Shown piece by piece: positions 1 through 19,321 of a stretch of 19,530 bases of DNA (the stretch's first letter is position 1; every line of letters begins with the position of its first letter). Source of the stretch: Anaerolineales bacterium. Its GTDB lineage: Bacteria; Chloroflexota; Anaerolineae; 4572-78; J111. A program made the translations under genes and the position numbers. The notes under the pieces were generated by a model. That model was not told where the DNA came from, did not search any database, and saw only the letters and a list, made by a program, of their open reading frames with translations. The stretch is from the NCBI GenBank assembly GCA_012032575.1, contig JAAUSP010000072.1:1-19530 (forward strand), written 5' to 3'.

Positions 1-87
1 CTCGCCGAGCTAGTAAACAGCGCCTCGTGAACGAGGCTAGCCGGATTCATCCGGCGTTGTTTACTAGCCCGGAAATTCATTTCCGGG
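1..87. repeat. Cluster of nested palindromes with TTCA/TGAA loops
   Basis: Four perfect inverted repeats are packed together. An outer 10-bp stem pairs 10-19 (CTAGTAAACA) with 58-67 (TGTTTACTAG). It encloses two hairpins, 23-36 (CCTCG-TGAA-CGAGG) and 41-54 (CCGGA-TTCA-TCCGG). A third hairpin, 68-87 (CCCGGAAA-TTCA-TTTCCGGG), follows directly. A small CTCG-C-CGAG palindrome at 1-9 suggests the cluster continues to the left. The stems differ, but the three inner hairpins all carry the same 4-nt loop (TTCA, or its complement TGAA), and CTAG recurs between them. This resembles REP-type or other dispersed palindromic elements. No transposase is visible, so mobility is only inferred. Confidence 0.75.
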
Positions 88-1319: not shown

Positions 1320-1568
1320 CTACCGATGATTGTAAAACTCCACACTCCAGCGCCACTCGCTGCCATCGGCGGCGTGCCACCAGGAGCGCAGCAGGCCAAC
1401 TTCGCCGCCGGGCAGGATCACCGGGCGGCCTATATCGGCCTCGGTGGGCCAGCAGTCTTCGCGCTCGACCTGCTCGCCCCGGCGGGTCAGGCGAGCCATG
1501 GGCCAGGCGTGGACGAGCAGAACATCGGTCGCATCGAGCCGGCCCCGCGCAAACGGCACGCCTTCCAC
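1320..1568 (-). CDS. Small hypothetical protein, start uncertain
   Basis: Not recognised. From the GTG at 1566-1568 the frame encodes 82 residues, but it is open back to a stop at 1677-1679 (119 codons), and the extra part (FYYHLDSLLPRYSKNPEPP and onward) reads like protein rather than random sequence. No ATG, GTG or TTG occurs in that extra part, so the true start may lie across a frame change or overlap the end of the SEDS-PBP gene. The C-terminus is rich in Trp and charged residues (PGGEVGLLRSWWHA, EWRWSVEFYNHR). There is no membrane segment or known motif. It follows the SEDS-PBP gene on the same strand and could be co-transcribed. A C-terminal extension of that gene in another frame is a less likely alternative. 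Confidence 0.4.
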   Translation of the reverse strand: MEGVPFARGRLDATDVLLVHAWPMARLTRRGEQVEREDCWPTEADIGRPVILPGGEVGLLRSWWHAADGSEWRWSVEFYNHR

Positions 1569-1656: not shown

Positions 1657-4252
1657 TCAAGGTGATAGTAGAACTTTCAAGGGCGCGCGGGCAATTCTCA
1701 ACGCCGCCCCGCTGTCCGGTTCAGCCGTCACTACCACCGCGACCACCACGTAGCGAGCCGCAGGACGTTCCACTGCGGCCGCTGGCGTGGGCGACGTTAT
1801 TTGGGTGGGGTCAAGAACAAGCTCAGCCTCAGCCTTAGCCTCAACCTGAAGCGCTTCTGCCGGGGCTAACCCCACCAACCAGCTCAGCGAGCGCTGGCCG
1901 GTTTCCAGGGGTGTCGCCACGCCCTGAAACCCGACCATTTGCCGGTCAACCTGCGACAGCAAAGCCCGCACGTAAGCGGCGGTGTCAGGTCGAAAAGAGG
2001 GGGTGGGTGAAAGCAGCGGGTTGGTTTCTGTTCGATGCAAAAGCGGCGTCGGCAGGCGGCCCGCCAACTCCAGCCCGGCGATGACCCGCGCCAAATGCAG
2101 CGGAGTTACCGCCAGGTCTCTGACCGTGCCCCGATTTTCAAAATCCGGCAGGCGGCCCACCTGCGAGGGCAAACCGGGCAGTGGACGCATCAGCCCCAGT
2201 TGGCGGGCGGTGGCCAGATAACCCGGCTGGCTCAACGGGGCCAGTATCTCGGCCAGAGGCGCAACCAGCGGGTCGGCGGGCAGGGTAGCCCCGGCTTCAC
2301 GCAGGCCAATCAGGCCGACCAACCGGGCCAGGTCGCCCACCGGGAAAAGGCCCTGGGTAGCCCGATTGAGCAAGGGCGCACGCTGATCCTGGCGCAGTAC
2401 ATCCCAATTAGCCTCCAGGGTGTTGGGGTCGTAAGTGGGGTGGCTGGACATGACCAGAATTGCCCCGGTTTCGATCTCCATCACCACTACCGCGCCTTCC
2501 TGGTCGCCCAGGGCCACATCGGCCGCTACCTGGGCCGGCAGGTTAATGGTCAGGGTAATATCTCGGCCAACCAGAGGGCGATGGAGCAGGTCGTCCAGCC
2601 ATTGATCCTCCACACTTTTGCCGGCGACCCCGCGCAAAACCGGATCAAAGACGGCCTCCGTTCCCCCCACCCCATAGCGAATACTATAATAACCCGTTAC
2701 CGAAGACAGGCCAGCGTAGGGATAGCGCCGCTCGGCAATACCCTGTTCATTAATAATGGTTTCCGCCACCGGCACCCCGGAGGCAGTCAGCAGCCGCCCC
2801 CGCCGAATCCCCTGCTCGGCTACTACCGGGCGCGGGTTGTCATCCCGGCGGGTCAAAAAAGGGGCCAGTACCACCTGCCAGAAGATCAACCCTCCGGCCA
2901 CAATCATAAAGCCGGTAAAAAGTCCCCAGGCCAGGGGTAAATGAAAAAGTTTGAACGTTTGAACACTTTTACGCTGTCGCGCAATAAACAACAACATGCC
3001 CACCATCACAAAACTGGTGACCAGGCTGCTGCCGCCGTAGCTGACAAAGGGCAGGGTGACGCCGGTGAGGGGCATCAACTTGAGCGTGCCGGCGGTGATG
3101 GTGAGGGTTTGCAGGCTCAAAATGATCCCGATCCCGGCGGCTAATAGTTGCTCAAAGCTGGTCTGAGCGGCCAGGGCAATAAAAAAGCCCGGCTGGTCAG
3201 CAGGACAAAACAGACCAGCACGGCCAGCGCCCCCAGCAGGCCATATTCTTCGCCAATGGCGGCAAAAACAAAATCGGTATGAACCACCGGAATAGCCGTC
3301 GGCAGGCCCTGGCCCAAGCCCTGACCAAAAATGCCGCCGCTGGCAAAAGCCAGCAGGGATTGGACAATCTGAAAGGAGCGGCCCGCCGGGTCGAGCCAGG
3401 GATTCCAGAAGGCTTCGATGCGCAGCCGAACCACATCGAAGAGGTAATAGCCCAGGCTGCCGGCCCCCATGAGCAGCAACACGCCGGCCCACAGATACCG
3501 TTTTTGGCCGATTGCCACGTACAGCATGGCCAGGAAGGTGCAGAAAAACAGCAGAGCCGCGCCCAGGTCGCGCTGCCAGACCAGCAGAACAATGCTCAGG
3601 CCCCACATTAACAGCATCGGTCCCCAATAGGAGGGATGCGGCATGCCGACCGGACCGATGTAAGCCTTAACCTCGACCAGTTGGCGGCGGCGTCCGGCCA
3701 GGTAAGCAGCCAGGAAGATGACAAGCAGTAATTTGAGCGGTTCGGACGGCTGAAAATAAACCGGCCCCAATTGCAGCCACAAACGGGGACCAAAACCGCT
3801 GGGTTAACCCCAAAGATGAGGGTAGCCGCCAGCAGGATCAAGCCGCCGGTCAACCAGGCATATTTGTAGCGGCGCAGCCAATCGAAGTTGCGCGGCAGCA
3901 GGACCACCCCCAGCAGGGCCACCGTGGCCATCACCAGCCAGGCAAGCTGCGGCAGCACAAACGCCGGGGCCAGCCGGGCAATCAACACCAGCCCCAGCCC
4001 GCTGAGAAAGAAGATCAGCGGCAGCAGAATCGGGTCGCCCGGCTGCCGGCGGCGCTGCACCAGGTAAGCCGAAAGGGTGCTGCATACAATCAGGACAACC
4101 AGGGGTAAAAAAGTGGTCAGACCCAGGTCATTGTTAACCAGGGCCAGTTGGGTCAGGGCCAGGCCGGTGAAGAGCCAGCTCAGCCACAGCAGAGGACCAC
4201 CGACCGCTGACCGCTGACCGCCGTTAGAAAGGCGTGTTGCTATCGCACCCAT
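1657..4252 (-). CDS. SEDS glycosyltransferase (RodA/FtsW family) fused to a degenerate class B penicillin-binding module; two frame changes
   Basis: One gene of about 865 codons read in three frames: 4252 to about 3800, about 3800 to 3187 (a base seems missing after the codons for FGVNP), and 3187 to 1657 (the T6 run at 3181-3186 appears one short). The first half is a multi-pass SEDS polymerase, which joins lipid II into glycan strands. Its motifs are intact: QPSEPLKLLL, QRDLGAALLF, HTDFVFAAIGEEYG (the Asp matching the essential FtsW residue is codon 3273-3275) and PLTGVTLPFVSYGGSS. The second half has a membrane segment, a PbpA-like dimerisation region (GYYSIRYG, VVVMEIETGAILVMSS, DPN) and a transpeptidase-like domain. 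Family transpeptidases have SxxK and KTG; here these read D-L-A-R (Asp codon 2332-2334, Arg 2323-2325) and E-T-G (Glu codon 1903-1905), and no SxN is visible. Transpeptidation is therefore unlikely. ATG 4250-4252 has no clear ribosome site. Confidence 0.85.
4195..4222. repeat. Heptamer tandem repeat inside the SEDS N-terminus
   Basis: Four 7-nt units run without gaps: GACCACC, GACCGCT, GACCGCT, GACCGCC. They encode part of the poorly conserved N-terminal tail of the SEDS-PBP protein before its first membrane segment. A related GACCACC-GACAGCC pair with an inverted copy lies at 4455-4497. Confidence 0.7.
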
Positions 4253-4512: not shown

Positions 4513-5385
4513 TTATGCTTCGTAATACTTACTCAGGAAAAGCTCCAGCTTCGCCCAGGTCTCTGCCGGAACGGCGCTGCGCTCGCGATGGCTGATGATG
4601 GCGGTGGAAAGGGCGTGATGGCAGGGCCAATCCGGGTCGCCGGTAAGCTTGCGGACGGTGTTGCGGATGGCCTGCTTGGCCACTTCGACATTGGCGTTGA
4701 GGTTGGCAATCACCGCGTCTACCGTCACCGGCTCTTTCGACTCGTGCCAGACATCGTAGTCGGTCACGTGGGCCATGGTGGCGTAGGCAATCTCGGCTTC
4801 GGCGGCCAGAAAGGCTTCGGGAATGGTGGTCATGCCAATGATGTCGCAGCCCCACTGCCGGAAAATCCTGCTTTCGCCTTTGGTGCTAAAACGCGGCCCT
4901 TCGATGATGACAAAAGTACCGCCTTTGTGGGCGGCCGCCCCGGTTTTTTGAACCCCTTCGTACAACAGCGCGGCCAGTTCCGGGGCAAACGGCTCGGCTA
5001 CGCTCATGTGGACCACCACGCCGCCGCTGTAAAAGGTCAGCTCGCGGGAGCGGGTCCGGTCAAAAAGCTGGTCGGGGATAACGATGTGGCGGGGGGCGTA
5101 CTCCTCGCGCAGGCTGCCGCAGGCGTTAGCGGCAATGATGTATTTGACCCCCAGGCTTTTGAAACCCCAAATATTGGCCCGGCTGTTCAGTTCGGTCGGG
5201 CTGATGGAGTGCTGTCGCCCGTGCCGGGGCAAAAAGGCCACACGCTGGCCTTCAAGCGTGCCGATAATGTAATTATCCGACGGTGAGCCAAAAGGGGTCG
5301 AAAGGGTCACTTCCTCCACGTCGGTCAGGCCATCCATCTGGTACAGGCCGCTGCCGCCGATAACGCCGATCTTTACTTGGGTCAT
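4513..5385 (-). CDS. mtnP: S-methyl-5'-thioadenosine phosphorylase
   Basis: Cytosolic phosphorylase that splits methylthioadenosine, the by-product of polyamine synthesis, into adenine and methylthioribose-1-phosphate. At 290 residues it is full length for the family. Visible motifs are GVIGGSGLY (7-15), RHGRQH (54-59), the NACGSL loop (87-92), EGPRFSTKGES (162-172), MTTIPEA (185-191) and DYDVW (209-213). The paired Asp of DYDxW point to adenine-type MTAP rather than guanosine/inosine PNP. One oddity is AFLAAEAEI (191-199), where many relatives have LAREAE. The ATG at 5383-5385 has AGGAG at 5397-5401, 11 nt upstream. It lies 80 bp after the M42 gene on the same strand and is probably transcribed from the same promoter, with a heptamer hairpin between them. 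Confidence 0.95.
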   Translation of the reverse strand: MTQVKIGVIGGSGLYQMDGLTDVEEVTLSTPFGSPSDNYIIGTLEGQRVAFLPRHGRQHSISPTELNSRANIWGFKSLGVKYIIAANACGSLREEYAPRHIVIPDQLFDRTRSRELTFYSGGVVVHMSVAEPFAPELAALLYEGVQKTGAAAHKGGTFVIIEGPRFSTKGESRIFRQWGCDIIGMTTIPEAFLAAEAEIAYATMAHVTDYDVWHESKEPVTVDAVIANLNANVEVAKQAIRNTVRKLTGDPDWPCHHALSTAIISHRERSAVPAETWAKLELFLSKYYEA

Positions 5386-9129: not shown

Positions 9130-11615
9130 CTATTTCCCCTCCAACCGGGCCAGGCGCTCCCGGCCCACGCGTAAAAACGGGTCTTCCCCCAACAAAAACT
9201 CATAAATCCGGCGGGCTTCGTCAAAAGCGCTGTTGGGCTTCATACAGCCGAGCCAGTTGCAGCCAGGGGGCGGCAGCAGCGGGGCTGACGCCGATCCGTA
9301 ACAACTGCGGGGCCAGGTCGTTGGCAGCGGCCCGGCCGTAGATGGTGATCTCGATATTTTCAGCGGTGAAGTGAGGCAAAAAGCCGCGCCGGTAAGCTGC
9401 TTCGGCGGCAGGCAGATCGCCCCAGCCTTCGTGGAGCTGGCCCAGGTAATAATAGGCACGATGGCTGCCCAAAAAGGCGGCAGTGCGGAGCAGTGTTTCA
9501 GCCGCCGCCGCATCTTCTGCCAGTTTGGCCCGCCCGGCCAGCAAGTAATCATCCGCACCCACCAGCCCCACCGAGGCCAGCAGCGCGGCGGCCCGGTCAG
9601 ACTGCCCCCGGCTCAGGTAAACTTCAACCAGGGCGTGGCGGACAGTTTCACGGGTTAAGTCCGGCTGCGGCCCCAGCAGCGCTTCCACCGTATCGAACTC
9701 CTCCCGCGCCAGGGCCAGTTTGACCGGCAGCAGGTCCTGATCGGCCACCTTTTGCCGCGCCGCTTCCCCGGTTATCAGCGGCCACGCTTCGGCCCGTGCC
9801 GGGTCAGTTCCCCAAAAATCCGAGCCGGCCAGTTGCGGGTCCAATGCCAGGGCCTGGACGTAAGCGGCGCGGGCCTCGGCCCACTGACCTTCCTGTTCGT
9901 AAAAATAACCCAGGTTGACCCAATAAAGCGGCACTTTCTCGGCGGCCAGGGTGCGCTGCATGGTGGCGATGGCCTCGGTTCGCTGACCCTGCTGCCACAA
10001 CAAGCCGGCCAGGTTAGCCGAATTCAAGCCCCAAATTGGCTCCTGCGCCAGCCCGGCCCGGTAATGGTCAATGGCTGCCTGGGCCAGAGCGGGGTCATCG
10101 TTCTGCCCGGCCAGGCGGGCTTCCAGCAGGGCCAGCCGAAAGAGCCGCCCCACCAGCCAGGGGTCAAGCTCATAAGACTGGCGAGCCTGGGCGACGGCTT
10201 CGGCCAGATTGCCCGCGCTCTCCCGGCTGAAACTCCTTTGATAAGCCAGGTCGGACTGGGCCAGCCGGACAAAAGCGGCGGCATAAACGGCCAGCAGCAG
10301 CGCAGCCAGGGCCGCTGCCCCGCGCTGTCTAGCGGGCGCGGGCGGCAGGTCCAGGGGAGCCACCATCGCGGCGGCCAGGGCCGCCACCAGCAGCATGATC
10401 GGGGTGGAACTGTAAGCATCCACCAGGGTTTGGGCTAATAAACCAACCACAGCCGCCCCGCAGACCAGCAGACGCAGCCGCTCCGGGGTGGTAGTCAACC
10501 GCCGCCAGTGCTGCCACCCGGTTTGTCCCAGCCGGAAGAGCAAATAGCCCCCGGCCAGCAGCCCGGCCAGGCCGAGTTCGGCGGCGGTATTGAGGTAGAT
10601 ATTGTGGGCCGAAGCAATCTGAAATCGCGGCAGGTCGGCCTGGTTCAGACGCAGCAGCGCCCGGCCAAAATTGCCCGGCCCCGCGCCGGTTAACGGCTGC
10701 TGCTGAAAAACAGTCAGGGCCACGTCCCACAGCACAAAGCGGAACTGGGTGCTGCTGCCCCGGCCGGCAAAACTGCTTTGCAGCCAAAACAGCCCCAACC
10801 CCAGCAGCAGCAGGCCGGCGGTCAGGCCCACCAGCCGTTGGGACAGAGTCAACTGCCGCCAGAGGGGGTAAAGTGAAAAGCGCTGCCGCCTGCTGAGCAG
10901 CAGCCAACCCACAGCGGTTAACCCCAGCGAGACCGCCAGGGCCAGCACCCCGGCCCGCGAAAAGGTTAAAACCTGGACCGGCAGCATCAGAATCAACCAC
11001 AGCCACAGCGCCGGGCGCTCCGGGTGTCGTGATGGCAGAGTCAGGAGCAGGCCGAGGGGCGGGTGGGGTCAACAGGGCCAGGTAGGCCGAGAGCGGGGTC
11101 GAGCCGTTGAGGGTAATCGCCAGGCGGTAAAGGGTCGGCGGGATGGGCTGCTGCCAGCCGCCGATACCCCACCAGCCCGAAAACAGTGCCCCGCCAAAGT
11201 ACCAGGCCAGAAATTCGGCCAGGCCGACCAGGCAGACCACCGCCGAGGCCATAAAGAAAGCCCGCGCCAGCCGGGCCGTCCAGCCCCGGCGCAGCATGTC
11301 CACCAACAGGTAAAAAGCCAGGAAATGAGTCAAGGTAAACCAGACTCCTTCCAGGCTAAAACGGGACGACTGGCCCAGGCCGGCGCTCAAAAAATTGGCA
11401 GCCAGGTACAGGGCAATGGCGCCATCCAGGGGGGTGCGCGGCAGGCCCGTGCCTTTTTTCAGCCGGTTAAACAGCCACCCCCCCAGGATTAGGGTGACGA
11501 TAAGCTGGTTGGCAACGCGCAGAAAAAAGTTAAACTGGCTGTAAAACGTACCGCCAATAAAGGTAAAGTAGCTGACCAGTCCGAGTAAGGCGAAATCTTT
11601 GGGGGTTAGTTTCAT
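9130..11615 (-). CDS. O-antigen ligase-like (Wzy_C) membrane protein with C-terminal TPR domain; two frame changes
   Basis: Probably transfers or polymerises glycans at the outer face of the membrane; exact substrate unknown. Rejoined it is about 828 residues. The N-terminal part (11615 to about 11060) is in one frame. Coding then shifts near the G4 runs at 11056-11067, where PLGLLLTLPSRHPERPALW restores the protein, runs to about 9227, and shifts again at the A4 run 9223-9226 to finish as FDEARRIYEFLL and stop at 9130. Many hydrophobic segments precede the Wzy_C signature: LTFSRAGVLALAV, TGAGPGNFGRALL and AHNIYLNTAAELGLAGL. The second half is soluble, Ala/Leu-rich and made of TPR helices (YWVNLGYFYEQEGQWAEARA and others). 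The ATG at 11613-11615 is preferred over TTG at 11621. A near-consensus promoter lies just upstream. The gene appears monocistronic and converges on the chemoreceptor gene. Confidence 0.85.
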
Positions 11616-11641
11616 GGGCAAAAATGGAATATGTCCTAAAG

Positions 11642-11894: not shown

Positions 11895-13690
11895 ATGCTA
11901 AGAACACATAATTGCGATCAACTTCGCCCCGAACACGAAGGCCAGACTGTCACCCTGGCGGGTTGGGTCCACCGCCGCCGGGATTTTGGGAACCTGATTT
12001 TTATTGATCTGCGCGACCGCTGGGGTTTAACCCAGATTGTTTTTGACCCCGATGTGGACGCCAGCGCCCACCTGTCAGCCGGCGAACTGCGCAATGAATA
12101 CGTTATCCAGGTAAACGGGCGGGTGCGCCGCCGGCCGGCCGGGCAGGAAAATTCGGCCCTGAACAGCGGCGAGGTCGAACTGGAAGGCCACAGCCTGAAG
12201 ATTTTGAACAAGGCCAAAACGCCTCCTTTCGACATCAACAAGGAAGCAACGGTGGATGAAGGTCTGCGCCTGCGCTATCGCTACCTGGATTTGCGCCGTC
12301 AGCGGATGCGCCGCAACATTATGCTGCGCCACAATGTGGTCCGCTACATCCGCAACTTCCTCAGCGAAGAAGGCTTTGTCGAAATCGAGACGCCGATCCT
12401 GTTCAAGACCACGCCCGAAGGCGCACGCGACTATCTGGTGCCCAGCCGGGTCCATCCCGGCAAGTTTTACGCCCTGCCGCAAAGCCCGCAGCAGCTCAAG
12501 CAGTTGATTATGGTGGCCGGCTACGACCGCTATTTCCAGATTGCCCGCTGCTTCCGCGATGAGGACCAGCGCGGCGACCGCCAGCCGGAGTTTACCCAGC
12601 TCGATATGGAGATGAGCTTTGTGGACCGTGACGACATCATGGCCCTGATCGAGCGGCTGATGACCAGTGTGGTCAAGAACAATATCGACAAGCCCATCCT
12701 GCACGAACCGTTCCCCCGTTTGAGCTATACCGAAGCGATGGCCCGCTTTGGCCGCGATAACCCCGATATTCGCTTTGGGCTGGAACTGGTCGAGATCAAT
12801 GCCATTGTGGCCAACAGCAGCTTCAAGGTTTTTAGCGACACGCTGGCGTCGGGCGGGCTGATCAAAGGACTCAATGCCAAAGGCCAGGGCCATTACAGCC
12901 GCAAACAGATTGACGAATTGACCGATTATGTGAAAGATTTTGGGGCTAAAGGGCTGGCCTGGCTGGTGGTAGACCCCCCCCCTCACCCCCCCCTCAGAGG
13001 GGGGGCGAAAGGGGGGTACGTTCCTCGTTTGCCAAGTTCCTTTCGCCGGAGGAAACAGCGGCGATTGTCAGCCAGTTGCAGGGCGAGCCGGGCGACTTAT
13101 TACTCTTTGTGGCCGACCGGCCCGCTGTGACCAACGAGGCGTTGGGCCGGCTGCGGGTCGAGTTGGGCCAGCGTTTGAACCTGTTCGACCCGAATGTGCT
13201 GGCCTTCTGCTGGGTCATTGACTTCCCCTTCCTGGTCTGGAATGAAGAAGAAAAGCGCTGGGACCCCAGCCACCACCTCTTCACCGCCCCGATGGACGAA
13301 GATGTTCCCCTGCTCGACAGCGACCCGGCCCAAGCGCGTGGCAAGCAGTACGACCTGGTTCTGAACGGTTACGAGATTGCCGGCGGTAGCATCAGAATCC
13401 ATCAGCGCGATTTGCAGGAGAAAGTATTTGGCTTGATCGGGCTGGAGATCGAAGAGGCCAAGCGGCAGTTCGGCCACATGGTCGAGGCGTTTGAGTACGG
13501 CACGCCCCCCCACGGCGGCATCGCTCCCGGTATTGACCGCCTGGTGATGCTTTTGGCCGGCGAACCCAACATCCGCGAGGTCATCGCCTTCCCCAAGAGC
13601 CAGTCCGCCGCCGATCTGATGGCCGGCGCGCCCACCGAAGTGTACGCGCAGCAGTTAAGAGATTTGCATATCAAGCTGGATTTGGATTAA
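11895..13690 (+). CDS. aspS: Aspartyl-tRNA synthetase with an internal C/G-rich repeat and frame change
   Basis: Class II synthetase charging tRNA-Asp in the cytosol. The first frame (from ATG 11895, GGAAG 6 nt upstream) runs to a stop at 13130, but homology leaves it near residue 360. The downstream frame, open from before [11 protein letters not shown] through to 13690, supplies the rest. Together they span about 598 codons, normal for the bacterial type. Visible parts: anticodon-binding OB fold with [10 protein letters not shown] (23-32), motif 1 region [12 protein letters not shown] (158-169), motif 2 [16 protein letters not shown] (220-235), the GAD insert, and in the second frame motif 3 [16 protein letters not shown]. 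The break lies in the GAD insert, where the tract at 12974-13016 adds [14 protein letters not shown] residues. If that tract's length is miscounted, the gene is intact. Residue 31 is Phe and residue 83 is Gly, relevant to Asp/Asn tRNA discrimination. A strong terminator follows. Confidence 0.92.
12974..13016 (+). repeat. C/G-rich palindromic repeat inserted within aspS
   Basis: C9, TCA, C8, TCAGA, G7, CGAAA, G6: a C-rich left arm able to pair with a G-rich right arm. It sits exactly where the reading frame changes, between GLAWLVV and RSSFAKFL. Related synthetases have only a short linker here. It looks like an intergenic-type dispersed element that landed in a tolerant surface region, with homopolymers prone to length error. 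Confidence 0.65.
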
Positions 13691-14550: not shown

Positions 14551-16365
14551 TTATTTCTTACTTCTTATTTCTATATCTTTCAACGACTTTTCCAGATCGT
14601 TAATCAATTTGTTCGTTTCGGCCAAAAATGAACCGACGACCGCATCGCTGCCGGGAGCAAAGCGGCCAATGTCAATTTGGGCCAGCGTCTCCTGGACCCG
14701 GTCAATCAAAGCAGAGTCGAGCCTGGTCGTTTTAAGCAGATTGACCAAACTATCATTGGTGAGACCGGCGGTAGGCCGACTCAATTTGTCGGACAAATAA
14801 CCTAGCAAGGCCCGATGAGCGGCGGCATAACTATCAACGCCGGCCCGCTGCGATTCGGCCAGGATTTTTTGCGCTACCCGTCGGGCGTTCTGACTGCGGG
14901 CATAAGCCGTGTTGGTCAACAGATACTGCCGCCGGTTTTGCCACATCCACATACCGCCCACCAGCAGCACCGGCAAAACCCAGGCGGTCCAATAAAGCGG
15001 CTGGTTGAGCAGAGAAGTCTCTTCGCTGTCCAGCATTGCCGGGGCCGGCTTGATGTGGCGAATATCGGCGGCCAGCACGGCAACTTCCTGCTTGTTGGGA
15101 CCGGCCGCAACCACCGGCGGCGGCAAATCCTCGCCCTGACCGGGTTGAACCATCACTGGAATCGGCTGGCTGTTCATGGTGCGATACTGGCTTGCTTCGA
15201 GATCAAAATAGGTAAAGCTAATCGGCGGAATGGTGTAACTGCCGGACTGACCGGGCACAATTAATCGCTCAAAGCGGCGGGTCCCGTAAACGCGGTCTCC
15301 CTGAATTTCGACAATACTTTGGGCCTGGCTTTCAAAAACGCGCCAGTTGGGCAGTTCGGGCAGGGGTGGTTCAACCAGCGCCTCAATATTGCCCGCGCCT
15401 TTTATTTCCACAATCAAGGTGATCGGCTCGTTGACGACCGTCTCATTTTTGCTCAAACCGGCCCTTATTTCATACTGGCCGACAGCCCCTTTGAAGTCAG
15501 CCGGTGCGCCATCGGGCAGCGACTGCACCTCAACGGTTATGGCTTCGGTTTCCAGCACAATATCCTGATAGGGAAAGTTGGGAATCACAATTTTGGCCGG
15601 GGAAATTGTCACCGGGCCAAGGTTGGCTGGAAAAAGGGCCGTGCGAATTTCCGTTACCAGATAATCCCGGCCGCCGACAGTTATATTATAGGTGGGCTGG
15701 TTGACAATGGTCTGGCTCCAAAAGTTGGTAAACGAGGGCGGCTGATAATCCGGCTGGCCGATAAACCCGGCGGACTGGTACAGCTTGAAAGTGTAAGTGA
15801 CCTGTTGACCCAGGTAAGGCTGCAAGTTATCAACGTCAGCCTCGACAAAAAAATCCTGGCTGCCCAGCGTCCCCGGCTCGACGGCGGGAGGGACTGTGGG
15901 GGTGGGCAGCGGCGCACTGCTGGTCACCACCCGAATGTCTATTGGTTCGGTCTGGTAAATCTGGCCGTTCAGGTTGATGATAACCGGGCTAATCACCAGC
16001 CCGCCTTCACGCAGCGGTTGCAGGGTATAGATAAACACTCCCTGCGTGGTCAAATCGCCGTTGATAATGCTGACCTGGGTGGAGGTGCTGCTGTTGACCA
16101 CCACAAAATCGGTCAATTGGGTTAAATCGGGGTTGGGAATATCCAAAAAATCGCCGGTGACGGTGACGGTGAGGGTAAGCTGCTCTTTGGTGGACAGAAT
16201 GGTCCGATCTACGGTGGCCGTGATCGGCACCTGATCCTGGGCCAGGGCTAAAGGAGTCCGGCCTCCAGAAAAGATCAGCGTCAACAAAAAAGCCGTTATC
16301 ACATAAAATGTAAAACGTGAAACGTGAAACGTGAAACGTGAAACGTGGCCCCTGACACCCAACAT
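14551..16365 (-). CDS. batD: BatD-like oxygen-tolerance membrane protein
   Basis: A 604-residue envelope protein matching BatD in layout and position. A hydrophobic export signal (about 21-42) follows an unusual repeat-derived tail. Then come several beta-sandwich domains outside the membrane (phrases such as ITATVDRTILSTKEQLTLTV, the Pro-rich linker PLPTPTVPPAVEPG near 152-165, and SGSYTIPPISFTYFD), one membrane helix at about 456-475 (LYWTAWVLPVLLVGGMWMW) and a cytoplasmic helical tail of about 129 residues. The ATG at 16363-16365 is 3 nt after the batC stop. Residues 7-20 repeat HVSRFTF twice because the DNA there is a heptamer array, so the true start could instead be the in-frame GTG just after the array (YVITAF). 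Bat proteins are associated with aerotolerance or envelope stress, but their mechanism is not settled. Confidence 0.88.
   Translation of the reverse strand: MLGVRGHVSRFTFHVSRFTFYVITAFLLTLIFSGGRTPLALAQDQVPITATVDRTILSTKEQLTLTVTVTGDFLDIPNPDLTQLTDFVVVNSSTSTQVSIINGDLTTQGVFIYTLQPLREGGLVISPVIINLNGQIYQTEPIDIRVVTSSAPLPTPTVPPAVEPGTLGSQDFFVEADVDNLQPYLGQQVTYTFKLYQSAGFIGQPDYQPPSFTNFWSQTIVNQPTYNITVGGRDYLVTEIRTALFPANLGPVTISPAKIVIPNFPYQDIVLETEAITVEVQSLPDGAPADFKGAVGQYEIRAGLSKNETVVNEPITLIVEIKGAGNIEALVEPPLPELPNWRVFESQAQSIVEIQGDRVYGTRRFERLIVPGQSGSYTIPPISFTYFDLEASQYRTMNSQPIPVMVQPGQGEDLPPPVVAAGPNKQEVAVLAADIRHIKPAPAMLDSEETSLLNQPLYWTAWVLPVLLVGGMWMWQNRRQYLLTNTAYARSQNARRVAQKILAESQRAGVDSYAAAHRALLGYLSDKLSRPTAGLTNDSLVNLLKTTRLDSALIDRVQETLAQIDIGRFAPGSDAVVGSFLAETNKLINDLEKSLKDIEIRSKK
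14552..14572. repeat. Heptamer tandem repeat at the batD/batE junction
   Basis: Three contiguous units in plus orientation, TATTTCT, TACTTCT, TATTTCT. They cover the last codons and stop of batD just before the batE start, and may supply the purine-rich sequence used as its ribosome site. Confidence 0.65.
16309..16348. repeat. Heptamer tandem repeat CGTGAAA at the start of batD
   Basis: Four exact CGTGAAA units (16316-16343), preceded by a diverged unit TGTAAAA and followed by a partial CGTGG. Three units make 21 nt, seven codons, so the array encodes a repeating HVSRFTF heptapeptide at the N-terminus of BatD if the first ATG is used. Confidence 0.9.
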
Positions 16366-16368
16366 CAG

Positions 16369-17184
16369 TTACCAATCCTGGGCAGGTAAGGGTTTGGGCG
16401 CGCCGCCAAAGCCGCCCTCGCTGCTGCCATCGCCATAGATTTCATTGAGCCGCTCTTGCAGAGTCTGGCTGTTTTGGCCCAGAGCATCCAGCAACTGCTG
16501 CGCCTCTTCCGGCGAAAGTTCCGTACCGTTGCCGGATTGCTGCTGTTCTTCGGGCTGCGAACCGCCACCGGAAGGGGACTGGTTCTGGTCCTCCTGATTT
16601 TGATTGCCGCCACCCTGCTGCTGTTGGTCCCCTTGCTGGCCGCCTTGCTGTTGTTGTTGCTGCTGGCCCTGACCGCCGCCTTGCTGTTGTTGCTGGTCGC
16701 CCTGTCCCTGTCCTTGCTGTTGTTGTTGCTGTTGTTGCTGTTGCTGTTGCTGCTGTTGTTGTTGCAGCATTTGCTGGGCCAGTTCCAGATTGTGCTTGGC
16801 GTCCACATCATCGGGCCGCAGCCGCAGCGCTTCTTTGTAGGCTTCTATCGCCGCTTCCCAATCTTCCATTTTGAAAAAACTATTGCCCAGGTTGTAATTT
16901 CCCTGCTGGGCCAGCTCGGCTTCGGCGGCGCGGAGAGACTGCTGGGTTTGAGCAATCGCCGCCTCGAAATCCTCTTTGCGGTGAAAGGTGTTGCCGGCAT
17001 TGTAATAGGGTTCAGCCAGGTCGGGGTCTTCGCGCTCGGCGGCGGTGTAATTTTTTAGCGCCTCATCATAATTTTCCGCCGCAAATTCTTCATTACCCTG
17101 TTGATTGAAGCCGGCCGCCGAAGGTCCACAGGCCGAAAACAGCACCCCGGCCACCAGTAATATAAACAAATAGCTATATTTCAC
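16369..17184 (-). CDS. batC: BatC-like TPR lipoprotein with polyglutamine region
   Basis: A 271-residue secreted protein. The N-terminus is a lipoprotein signal ending at Cys19 (LLVAGVLFSAC), so it is probably membrane-tethered by lipid on the outer face. Residues about 24-135 form TPR repeats (YYNAGNTFHRKEDFEAAI, YNLGNSFFKMEDWEAAIEAY), a likely protein-binding scaffold. After them comes a run of 17 Gln and a long Gln/Gly-rich stretch (to about 225), then a short acidic helix (SPEEAQQLLDALGQN). BatC proteins commonly have such Gln-rich tails, though this run is long. The start is GTG at 17182-17184, fixed by GAGGAG at 17191-17196. It sits between batB and batD with a heptamer repeat upstream. 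A general TPR lipoprotein is the alternative, but the context supports BatC. Confidence 0.88.
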   Translation of the reverse strand: MKYSYLFILLVAGVLFSACGPSAAGFNQQGNEEFAAENYDEALKNYTAAEREDPDLAEPYYNAGNTFHRKEDFEAAIAQTQQSLRAAEAELAQQGNYNLGNSFFKMEDWEAAIEAYKEALRLRPDDVDAKHNLELAQQMLQQQQQQQQQQQQQQQQQGQGQGDQQQQQGGGQGQQQQQQQGGQQGDQQQQGGGNQNQEDQNQSPSGGGSQPEEQQQSGNGTELSPEEAQQLLDALGQNSQTLQERLNEIYGDGSSEGGFGGAPKPLPAQDW

Positions 17185-17197
17185 AGATAACTCCTCA

Positions 17198-17226
17198 AAC
17201 GTTTAACGTTTTAACGTTTAACGTTC
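17198..17226. repeat. AACGTTT tandem repeat at the batB/batC junction
   Basis: AACGTTT, AACGTTTT, AACGTTT, AACGTTC in a row. Each unit contains the palindrome AACGTT. The array supplies the stop codon and last residues (NVKR) of BatB and ends just before the batC ribosome site. Confidence 0.85.
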
Positions 17227-18269
17227 AATGCTCCGCCGGGGACACTCTCCGGCCTGGGCAACTTTTGACGGACCCGGTCAGGAATGAGTTCGCCGGCAAT
17301 AAGCGCCAAAACTGCCAGCCCCAGGAACCATTGGAAGCGTTCGATACCGCGCGTTTCAAAACGGCTCTCCAGCTCGCCCTTTTGCAGGTCACTGATGGCC
17401 TCGCCCACAAAACCGACTTCGCGGCCATCGGCGGAGGCGCGGAAGTAGCGCCCCCCCGTAGCCAGGGCAATTTCCTGCAAAGTGGTCTCATCCAGGCGGG
17501 TCAAAACGGTTTCGCCCTGGCGGTCCTTTTTGTAACCGGTCAGCGTGCCCAGTTCATCATATTCGGGGATTGGCTCTCCATCGGGCGAGCCAAAACCGAT
17601 GGCATAAATGATGATCCCCTCGTTGGCGGCTTCCTGGGCAAGAGTCGCTACTTCATCGCCAAATTCCGTAGATTCACCATCGGTGAGCAAAATGATGACT
17701 TTTTGGCTGGCTCGCTCTTCATTGAACCCGTTCAGGGCCGTTTTGAGGGCATCGGCCAGGTTGGTACTGGTCCGCGAAATCATGCCCGGATGGGCCGCCT
17801 CCAGGAAAAAGCGGGCGGTCGAAAAATCGGCGGTGAGCGGAAACTGAATATAAGCTGCCCCGGCAAAAACCACCAGGCCAACTTCATTCCCTTCCAGCCG
17901 GTCCATCAATTCCGAAATTTCCAGCTTGGCCCGGGCCAGCCGGTTAGGCTTGAGGTCTTCAGCCAGCATACTCTGCGACACATCCAGAGCCACCATAATT
18001 TCGACCCCGCGCCGTTCCACCACCTCCACCTGTGCTCCCCAGCGAGGCCGGGCCAGGGCCACAATCACCAACGCCAGAGCGACAAACCGCAACCGGATTT
18101 GCCAGCGCCGGCCCGACCAGTTGACCGCCGCACTCAGGCGGGCAATCAACTGCGGCGCGCCCAGACGGTCCAGTGCAGCCTGTTTGCGCTTGCTCAGGTA
18201 AAACAGCAGCAGCGCCAGCAACAGCAGCGGGGCGAAACAGGTTAGATAAAGCGGTTCAGCAAAATCCAT
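17211..18269 (-). CDS. batB: BatB-like membrane VWA protein
   Basis: A 352-residue membrane protein with a von Willebrand factor A domain outside or at the membrane, thought to bind metal and partner proteins. Membrane helices are at about 7-27, 60-77 and 317-335. The VWA domain (about 88-275) has a complete MIDAS: DVSQS (the DxSxS motif), the Thr of RTSTNLADAL, and the Asp of LLTDGES. The C-terminal half carries the typical TRLDETTLQEIALATGGRYFRAS. The start ATG is at 18267-18269. The last residues NVKR and the stop codon come from the AACGTTT repeat, so the C-terminus is probably not under strong constraint. It lies between batA and batC in the same operon. The paired batA/batB arrangement supports the call over other VWA proteins. 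Confidence 0.9.
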   Translation of the reverse strand: MDFAEPLYLTCFAPLLLLALLLFYLSKRKQAALDRLGAPQLIARLSAAVNWSGRRWQIRLRFVALALVIVALARPRWGAQVEVVERRGVEIMVALDVSQSMLAEDLKPNRLARAKLEISELMDRLEGNEVGLVVFAGAAYIQFPLTADFSTARFFLEAAHPGMISRTSTNLADALKTALNGFNEERASQKVIILLTDGESTEFGDEVATLAQEAANEGIIIYAIGFGSPDGEPIPEYDELGTLTGYKKDRQGETVLTRLDETTLQEIALATGGRYFRASADGREVGFVGEAISDLQKGELESRFETRGIERFQWFLGLAVLALIAGELIPDRVRQKLPRPESVPGGALNVKR

Positions 18270-18279
18270 AATCTCTCAA

Positions 18280-18324
18280 AAGGATGAAGGATAAAGAAAG
18301 TTTTTTCATCCTTCCTTCATCCTT
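18280..18324. repeat. Inverted heptamer repeat at the batA/batB junction
   Basis: AAGGATG, AAGGATA, AAGAAAG lie next to each other, and CATCCTT occurs twice to the right. A perfect 12-bp stem pairs 18280-18291 with 18313-18324 across a 21-nt loop containing T6. It fills almost the whole intergenic gap and could be a processing or stability hairpin. Confidence 0.7.
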
Positions 18325-18325
18325 C

Positions 18326-19321
18326 CTACGGTATTGTCCTCAAAATTGTCCGGCGCAGCAAAATTTCCAGGGCTAAAATCAGGGCAGCCGGCACAATAAA
18401 CCAGACGGCTAATTCGCGATAGCGGGTAAAGGTTCTGACCTCCACCTGCGAGCGTTCCAAATCGTTAATCGTGTCATAAATTTCCTGCAAGCCCTCGCCG
18501 TCTTCGGCCCGGAAGTACAGTCCGCCGGTAATATCGGCGATTTGGCGCAGCGTTTCTTCATCAATTTCAGAGTCACGGTACTCCACCCGGCCATCGGGAA
18601 ACGGCAGGGCCGCCGGGCCGGGCCGGGCCGCACCGATGGTATAAACCTTAATATCCAGGGCTTTGGCAATTTGCGCCGCCGTGATCGGGTCAACCTGGCC
18701 GGAGTTGTTGGCTCCATCGGTGAGCAGGACTATCACCCGGCTGTCAGCCTTAGACTCGCGCAGCATGTTTGCTCCGTTAGCCAACCCCAGGCCAATGGCC
18801 GTGCCACTGTCCAGACCAATATCCCACGACACCTGGGTTTCGTCGAGCACGCGCTGGACCACTTTGTAATCGAGCGTGGGCGGCACCTGGCTGAAGGCTT
18901 CGCTAGCAAATATAACAAAGCCAAGCCGGTCGTACTTGCGCTGCCCGATAAATTCGTTGATGACCCGTTTGGCCGCGCCCAGGCGATTCGGGTCAAAATC
19001 CAGGGCGGCCATGCTGCCGGAAATATCCAGCACGATGACGATGTCAATTCCTTCGCCGGTGATGATTTCACGGGCGCTGCCGGCTTGAGGCCGGGCCAGG
19101 GCGATAATCAACAAGGCCAGGCCGATCAGGCGCAGGGCCGGCAAAATAACCCGGCTCCGCTCGCGCAGAGTTGGACCAAGCTGGGCCGCCAGCCGCAAAT
19201 CGGAGTATTGCAGGGCGGCGGGCGGGCGGCGGTTTCGAGTCCACAGCGGCAGCAGGGCCAGCCCCAGCGGAACCAGCAATAACAACAGCAGCCAGGGGGT
19301 CGCAAAATGGAGGGTGGTCAT
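18326..19321 (-). CDS. batA: BatA-like membrane VWA protein
   Basis: A 331-residue membrane protein, companion of BatB. Helices at about 8-28, 60-78 and 305-323 bracket a VWA domain (about 88-275). The MIDAS is complete: DISGS (DxSxS), Thr in SGTAIGLGLANG, Asp in LLTDGANNSG. The ending LRQIADITGGLYFRAEDG is typical of the family. The ATG at 19319-19321 overlaps the TGA of the upstream gene (ATGA), which indicates translational coupling. As first of the two VWA genes it would, in most genomes, follow moxR, a DUF58 gene and a small membrane protein gene. Only the last of these is partly inside the window. A metal-dependent adhesive role in an envelope complex is inferred from the domain. Confidence 0.92.
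   Translation of the reverse strand: MTTLHFATPWLLLLLLVPLGLALLPLWTRNRRPPAALQYSDLRLAAQLGPTLRERSRVILPALRLIGLALLIIALARPQAGSAREIITGEGIDIVIVLDISGSMAALDFDPNRLGAAKRVINEFIGQRKYDRLGFVIFASEAFSQVPPTLDYKVVQRVLDETQVSWDIGLDSGTAIGLGLANGANMLRESKADSRVIVLLTDGANNSGQVDPITAAQIAKALDIKVYTIGAARPGPAALPFPDGRVEYRDSEIDEETLRQIADITGGLYFRAEDGEGLQEIYDTINDLERSQVEVRTFTRYRELAVWFIVPAALILALEILLRRTILRTIP

Follow-up and report, generated by a model that had tools for sequence, protein, structure and literature searches.

Chloroflexota fusions of a SEDS glycan polymerase with a PbpA-type penicillin-binding protein that appears to have lost its transpeptidase site

In known RodA–PbpA systems the SEDS polymerase RodA and the class B penicillin-binding protein (PBP) PbpA are encoded by separate genes, and a cluster of FHA genes lies beside the actinobacterial pair. 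Examples are PBPA of Mycobacterium tuberculosis (3lo7/3un7) and RodA with PBP2b/PbpA of Corynebacterium glutamicum; PBPA forms acyl-enzymes with beta-lactams, according to published titles. A class B PBP normally has two tasks, activation of its SEDS polymerase and crosslinking of the product, and in the published excerpts consulted these were separated in laboratory mutants. Mutations affecting activation are concentrated at the contact between the PBP pedestal and loop 4 of the SEDS protein (excerpt of PMC8078798), the membrane helix of E. coli PBP2 alone stimulates RodA in a fusion (excerpt of PMC10449877) and a change in the pedestal raised RodA activity in engineered fusions (excerpt of PMC6207328). 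Catalysis by B. subtilis PBP2B is dispensable and that by C. difficile SpoVD partly so, according to excerpts on PBP2B and SpoVD active-site mutants, and S. aureus PBP1 without catalysis gives aberrant septa while its regulatory functions remain (excerpt of PMC9426605). Natural SEDS–PBP fusions in one ORF are also on record, with the genome of Rhodococcus RHA1 cited as source (passage of PMC10449877).

The window analysed here, a stretch of 19,530 nucleotides from an Anaerolineales bacterium, carries on its reverse strand at 1657-4252 a SEDS (FtsW/RodA) polymerase followed head to tail by a PbpA-type class B PBP half. The order of SEDS gene and PBP gene, the PBP_dimer_2 domain and the best structural match all correspond to the RodA–PbpA pair. 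In contrast to that pair of two proteins, the relatives of the window carry both parts on one chain, and the fusion lacks SxxK, SxN and KTG. FhaA_N/FHA genes were found upstream of the pair in two related loci (L021 and L038); among the window ORFs scanned there were none, the only neighbour matched being PNP_UDP_1.

The single polypeptide is shared with the natural fusions of PMC10449877, where the passage describing them is silent on a lost active site. SEDS and PBP folds and the coupling through helix and pedestal would be shared with RodA–PBP2 and FtsW–FtsI of E. coli, whose PBPs are catalytic and whose fusions are synthetic in the excerpts describing them. The PBP2B and SpoVD mutants likewise support the SEDS partner or division without catalysis of their own; as far as the excerpts go, those dead forms were made in the laboratory, whereas here the dead form would be the natural state of a lineage. 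A literature search on Chloroflexota fusions and on degenerate or inactive PBPs, with most subscription journals outside its coverage, returned no account of such a degenerate lineage.

Architecture of the fusion and its transpeptidase site

Pfam searches with the window ORFs gave matches to PF01098 (E 6.7e-47 and 9.1e-17), PF21922 (E 2.6e-6) and PF00905, the last (E 1.8e-7) covering only the first 41 of 299 profile positions. The PBP half is a single open frame, 3186-1657(-). The frame of the SEDS half shifts twice, near 3785-3803 and again near 3177-3190; both sites were placed from overlapping tblastn pieces of relative P0002, which shares 90% identity with the window over the PBP half. The first protein search returned 1004 matches; most of the best 120 were fusions of 850–940 aa with SEDS, PBP_dimer_2 and Transpeptidase domains, several of them named Anaerolineae or Chloroflexota. 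In relatives such as P0002 to P0005 the fusion is intact in one frame, while the SEDS half of the window is interrupted twice. Since the relatives are mostly intact fusions, the frame changes appear peculiar to the record of the window and the loss of the active site does not.

Table 1. Features of the fusion and its surroundings, with the basis of each placement (window positions unless a genome is named).
Feature	Position	Strand	Basis
SEDS half, first piece (N-terminal membrane helices)	3785..4252	-	own frame; tblastn P0002 11-164 on 4246-3785; ORF 3608-4252
SEDS half, middle piece	3177..3803	-	second frame; PF01098 E 6.7e-47; tblastn P0002 159-367, 96% identity
SEDS half, last piece	2968..3186	-	third frame; PF01098 on residues 1-73 of ORF 1660-3186
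HTDF motif with SEDS catalytic Asp	3270..3281	-	H[TS]DF in 217/217 full-length fused proteins
Membrane helix of PBP half	2869..2943, approximate	-	transferred from helix 454-478 of P0002 model
Pedestal / PBP_dimer_2 domain	2566..2802	-	PF21922 on residues 129-207
Degenerate transpeptidase domain	1660..2496	-	
DLAR at SxxK position	2323..2334	-	homologue columns and comparison with L038
Pro-Leu-Val at SxN position	2263..2271	-	ungapped extension, with a deletion of about 35 residues ahead of it
FQG at KTG position	1921..1929	-	ungapped comparison with L038; strands of two models
ETG, turn after KTG strand	1897..1905	-	named KTG site in the earlier reading
Phosphorylase-superfamily gene, directly upstream of fusion	4513..5385	-	PF01048; also upstream of SEDS gene in L021
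Further SEDS/intact-PBP pair in genome G002	L118 = G002:C3:1183567-1184556; G002:C3:1185135-1186250		

Membership of the SEDS family was indicated by both the FTSW_RODA_SPOVE domain and the fold. The Asp of HTDF is the catalytic residue of SEDS proteins (excerpt of PMC6207328), and a reading made earlier from the sequence alone had rightly noted that this motif is kept (Table 1). By its sequence the SEDS motif of the fusion is intact and lipid II polymerisation is predicted.

The PBP half has the fold of a class B PBP, pedestal and transpeptidase fold included, and the landmarks GYYSIRYG, NRATQG and WLVGLAP were all found as that reading had reported. The motifs of an active D,D-transpeptidase are absent. 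An intact relative, L038, carries SAFK, SCN and KTGT and served as a gap-free reference for the motif positions of the window; the alignment placed SxxK, SxN and KTG on DLAR, PLV and FQG instead of on intact motifs elsewhere in the domain. The Asp-x-x-Arg proposed earlier for SxxK was borne out by the homologues: among the best 120 of 1004, a set that includes the window's own ORF (P0001) and one protein read out of frame here (P0117), the nucleophile position is occupied by D in 111 rows, E in 4, S in 2, G in 2 and T in 1, and the Lys position by R in 117, with Q, N and Y once each. The suspected shortening around SxN also held, with about 35 residues deleted and SxN gone, the distance from SxxK to SxN being 21 residues (D657-P678) in P0002 versus 56 (S213-S269) in L038.

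The one claim that had to be corrected concerns KTG, which had been read as ETG. Upon ungapped comparison KTG of L038 falls on FQG of the window, and ETG starts 8 residues after the start of FQG. Predicted models, made for P0002 and L038 and not for the broken gene of the window, agree: KTGT 416-419 lies in strand 414-420 of L038 and FQG 792-794 in strand 789-796 of P0002, the start of the next strand follows that of the KTG strand after 16 residues in both, and ETG of P0002 (800-802) sits in the turn before this next strand. ETG as the KTG site was rejected as a misalignment on these grounds, and the loss of motifs is more complete than had been held. The best structural match of the P0002 model was to PBPA-type PBPs (M. 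tuberculosis PBPA, 3lo7/3un7). Loss of the canonical transpeptidase site is well supported by these alignments and models.

Distribution of the loss and order of events

Motif columns were read in 408 PBP halves, delimited by a profile built from the window's own clade. They came from 358 proteins, from the best 120 each of 1004, 1419 and 7650 matches in three protein searches, and from 50 loci, those with a PBP match among 61 found in a genome scan. The rows were drawn by similarity and some sequences are identical, so the counts should not be read as frequencies in a population. All but one of the 258 fused rows had neither motif, the exception (L056) being truncated; Lys occupied the column of SxxK or of KTG in 0/258 fused rows, and Ser the nucleophile column in 17/258. 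The 150 unfused rows comprised 51 intact ones (all with SxN too), 19 with K.G only and 80 with neither motif. Degeneracy is thus not tied to fusion, as it is already present, with several replacement sets, in unfused SEDS/PBP neighbours. The replacements vary by clade: in 217 full-length fused proteins they were DxxR (86), AxxQ (70), TxxQ (17), AxxE (13), SxxQ (11) and others (20). Among the fused relatives read in this way the loss is family-wide.

For a class-wide draw of 60 genomes, a PbpA-type match was taken, by the analyst's judgement, as one above 200 bits starting by profile position 17. Such a match was present in 15 genomes, one of them truncated, with G001, G008, G009 and G027 among the 15 already in the earlier sampling. 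The 14 readable halves were fused and degenerate (7), unfused and degenerate (5) or unfused and intact (2).

In a rapidly built tree (57 SEDS halves, short search, midpoint-rooted) the fused or unfused state changed five times, at least four of these changes being forced by starred branches. A single clade of all fused proteins was rejected (p-AU 1.6e-93, 50 rows with a PBP match). The DxxR rows and L014 form one side of a branch with a support of 97, and within this group the unfused rows lie outside the fused ones. Because the fusion clade of the window nests among unfused, already degenerate pairs, in this lineage the site was, by the tree, lost before fusion. Some of the changes may instead be fissions of an ancestral fusion; the intact L038, however, is unfused, which favours fusion.

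Individual loci gave further observations. L051 (9280-10419) is 76% identical to L038 and keeps KTG, while its SxxK-SxN stretch is replaced by Glu/Leu/Gly-rich low complexity; this looks like a recent inactivation, judged from the sequence. A similar pattern was seen in three listed proteins (P0273, P0302 and P0318). Four SEDS genes of the same family (L022, L026, L027 and L040) had no PBP match in the downstream DNA. Loss of the PBP gene at such loci was set aside as an explanation, as the genomes of L026 and L027 carry a degenerate PbpA-type gene on another contig; in those of L022 and L040 a weak domain search found no PbpA-type gene above the cut-off.

Constraint on the domain and possible explanations

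Selection was assessed by the Nei-Gojobori method. The dN/dS of the PBP half was 0.08-0.33 in those 18 of 21 pairs that had an unsaturated dS, many pairs having a dS above 1, and 0.13 between the window and L001; that of the SEDS half was 0.08-0.18 (15 pairs). By these estimates the PBP half is under purifying selection. The ratio of transpeptidase to pedestal distance, a median over non-independent pairs, was 0.92 for intact PBPs, 0.99 for unfused and 1.16 for fused DxxR rows, 1.41 for unfused and 1.55 for fused Q/E-type rows and 1.60 for the remaining rows. At pedestal distances of 0.2-0.4 the fused DxxR rows appear relaxed compared to intact PBPs (1.31 vs 0.86), and at longer distances they do not (1.03 vs 1.05 and 0.90 vs 0.99). 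On these sequence distances, relaxation of the transpeptidase domain is clear in the other degenerate clades and much weaker in that of the window. Across 108 fused D/E-xx-R rows, residues S713, H736 and T801 hardly vary. A comparison of 18 unfused PBPs, of which nearly all are degenerate, yielded 24 invariant columns, 15 of them ahead of the transpeptidase domain (residue 159 onwards). That the dead domain is still constrained in the window's clade suggests that it has some further task.

Other PBPs were listed in the genomes of relatives, not in the window's own genome. As control, 60 PF00905 regions from 27 genomes were picked by match quality and frame length; under the analyst's own labels, SxxK and K[ST]GT were kept in 20/20 FtsI-like and 20/20 PBP2-like domains and, scored more loosely with S..K anywhere, in 19/20 others. 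Leaving out L113, the intact partner of L038 itself, 58 of 59 other PBP domains are intact, and the one miss (L107) is cut by a stop. Per genome 4-10 PF00905 matches were found (30 genomes); PF01098 matches, some of them fragments, numbered 3 or 4 in 26/30 genomes and 2 in 4/30. Class A glycosyltransferases (2-5 matches per genome) and MreB-family proteins were matched in 16/16 genomes searched, the best MreB-family match of G006 reaching only 1.3e-16. With several PF00905 and PF01098 matches and class A PBPs per genome, the fused pair usually comes on top of other SEDS pairs in the same cell. The earlier suggestion that crosslinking is done elsewhere is in line with this inventory, in that the intact FtsI-like and PBP2-like and the class A PBPs of the relatives could make the crosslinks. 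Besides its degenerate fusion, genome G002 has another SEDS match, adjoining an intact PBP (STFK, SAN, KTGT) that has a PBP_dimer_2 match (Table 1).

The explanation that we consider probable is that the gene descended from a neighbouring gene pair of the RodA–PbpA kind, whose PbpA partner would have lost its transpeptidase site in this Chloroflexota lineage while still a separate protein and would later have been fused, already dead, to its own polymerase in the window's clade. Through its membrane helix and pedestal the PBP half would act as a fixed activator or scaffold of the SEDS polymerase; it would not be acylated by penicillins, and crosslinking would be left to FtsI-like, PBP2-like and class A PBPs. 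We infer the activator or scaffold role from the published behaviour of SEDS–bPBP pairs, while the statements on site, fold, selection, SEDS motif, other PBPs and repeated changes between fused and unfused states draw on sequences and predicted models. Some findings count against this explanation. A role of helix and pedestal only predicts decay of the transpeptidase domain, yet this domain is constrained (1.16 and 0.99 vs 0.92) and its three residues S713, H736 and T801 are nearly invariant; S. aureus forms aberrant septa on loss of PBP1 catalysis (excerpt of PMC9426605), and the window's own gene is broken by two frame changes. A possible reading, towards which we lean less, is that in this bacterial class the partner of an extra SEDS polymerase lost crosslinking with several outcomes, that fusion of the dead partner arose several times and produced single-chain polymerases carrying their own regulatory PBP fold, and that the dead domain of the window's clade was re-stabilised around a conserved Asp/Arg pair and is again constrained for a new, non-crosslinking job, for example sensing or guiding the nascent strand.

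More specifically, the transpeptidase domain could have gained another activity or binding site, for instance for holding the nascent strand or peptide, on Asp/Arg or other conserved residues. The near-invariant residues, the D and R columns of the best 120 of 1004 homologues and the overall constraint, nearly that of intact PBPs, all speak for it, but the other degenerate clades differ at these places (AxxQ, TxxQ, AxxE, LxxQ) and are more relaxed, and the fused DxxR rows are themselves relaxed at short pedestal distances, so that we consider it unlikely. It is improbable that the fused SEDS protein makes a glycan that is never crosslinked by transpeptidases, which would make PBP catalysis useless: although the gene is usually an extra one beside FtsW and RodA, as the PF01098 counts indicate, its product shares catalytic motif and fold with the SEDS enzymes of peptidoglycan synthesis, and there are unfused orthologues that are intact. 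We give very little weight to a loss favoured for beta-lactam insensitivity of the SEDS complex; no readable fused row keeps the canonical nucleophile/Lys pair, so acylation is not expected, but the other PBP domains sampled in relatives are intact, so the cell should stay sensitive. It is scarcely credible that assembly errors have disguised an ordinary active PBP, or that this single gene is decaying. Two frame changes do lie in the SEDS half and two other genes of the window also appear split between frames, but the motif losses sit, as the sequence-only reading had stated, in one uninterrupted frame away from both changes, they are common to all readable fused relatives examined rather than confined to this assembly, and dN/dS is low. 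An assembly error as the cause of motif loss is refuted by the open frame and this sharing, and the proposal of a pseudo-transpeptidase gains support from the missing Lys residues, purifying selection and the match of the model to PBPA-type PBPs.

Under the preferred reading of a dead partner fused to its polymerase, evolution appears to have split activation from crosslinking in a whole lineage, with several sets of replacements. Such fusions would let one ask what a non-crosslinking PBP does for a SEDS protein and which portions of the fold this requires. A further lesson is that annotation by domain match can label as ‘penicillin-binding’ proteins that should not bind penicillin.

Other features of the window

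An aspartyl-tRNA synthetase-like gene (aspS, 11895-13690(+)) is split over two overlapping frames, and near its frame change a Pro/Gly-rich stretch resembles an inserted small repeat. A Wzy_C/TPR protein (9221-11621(-)) is likewise spread across two overlapping frames, a possible third case next to the fusion and aspS, hinting at indel errors in the record of the window. At the very start of the window (5-72), two adjacent 34-base arms of an inverted repeat are 76% complementary. Just downstream of the fusion a small ORF, 1320-1568(-), matches DUF7712 (E 1.6e-34) at profile positions 70-129 of 129 only, and so probably represents the tail of a longer or truncated gene. A Bat-type cluster at 14551-19321(-) consists of two VWA/BatA proteins, a TPR protein with a long Gln-rich stretch and BatD.
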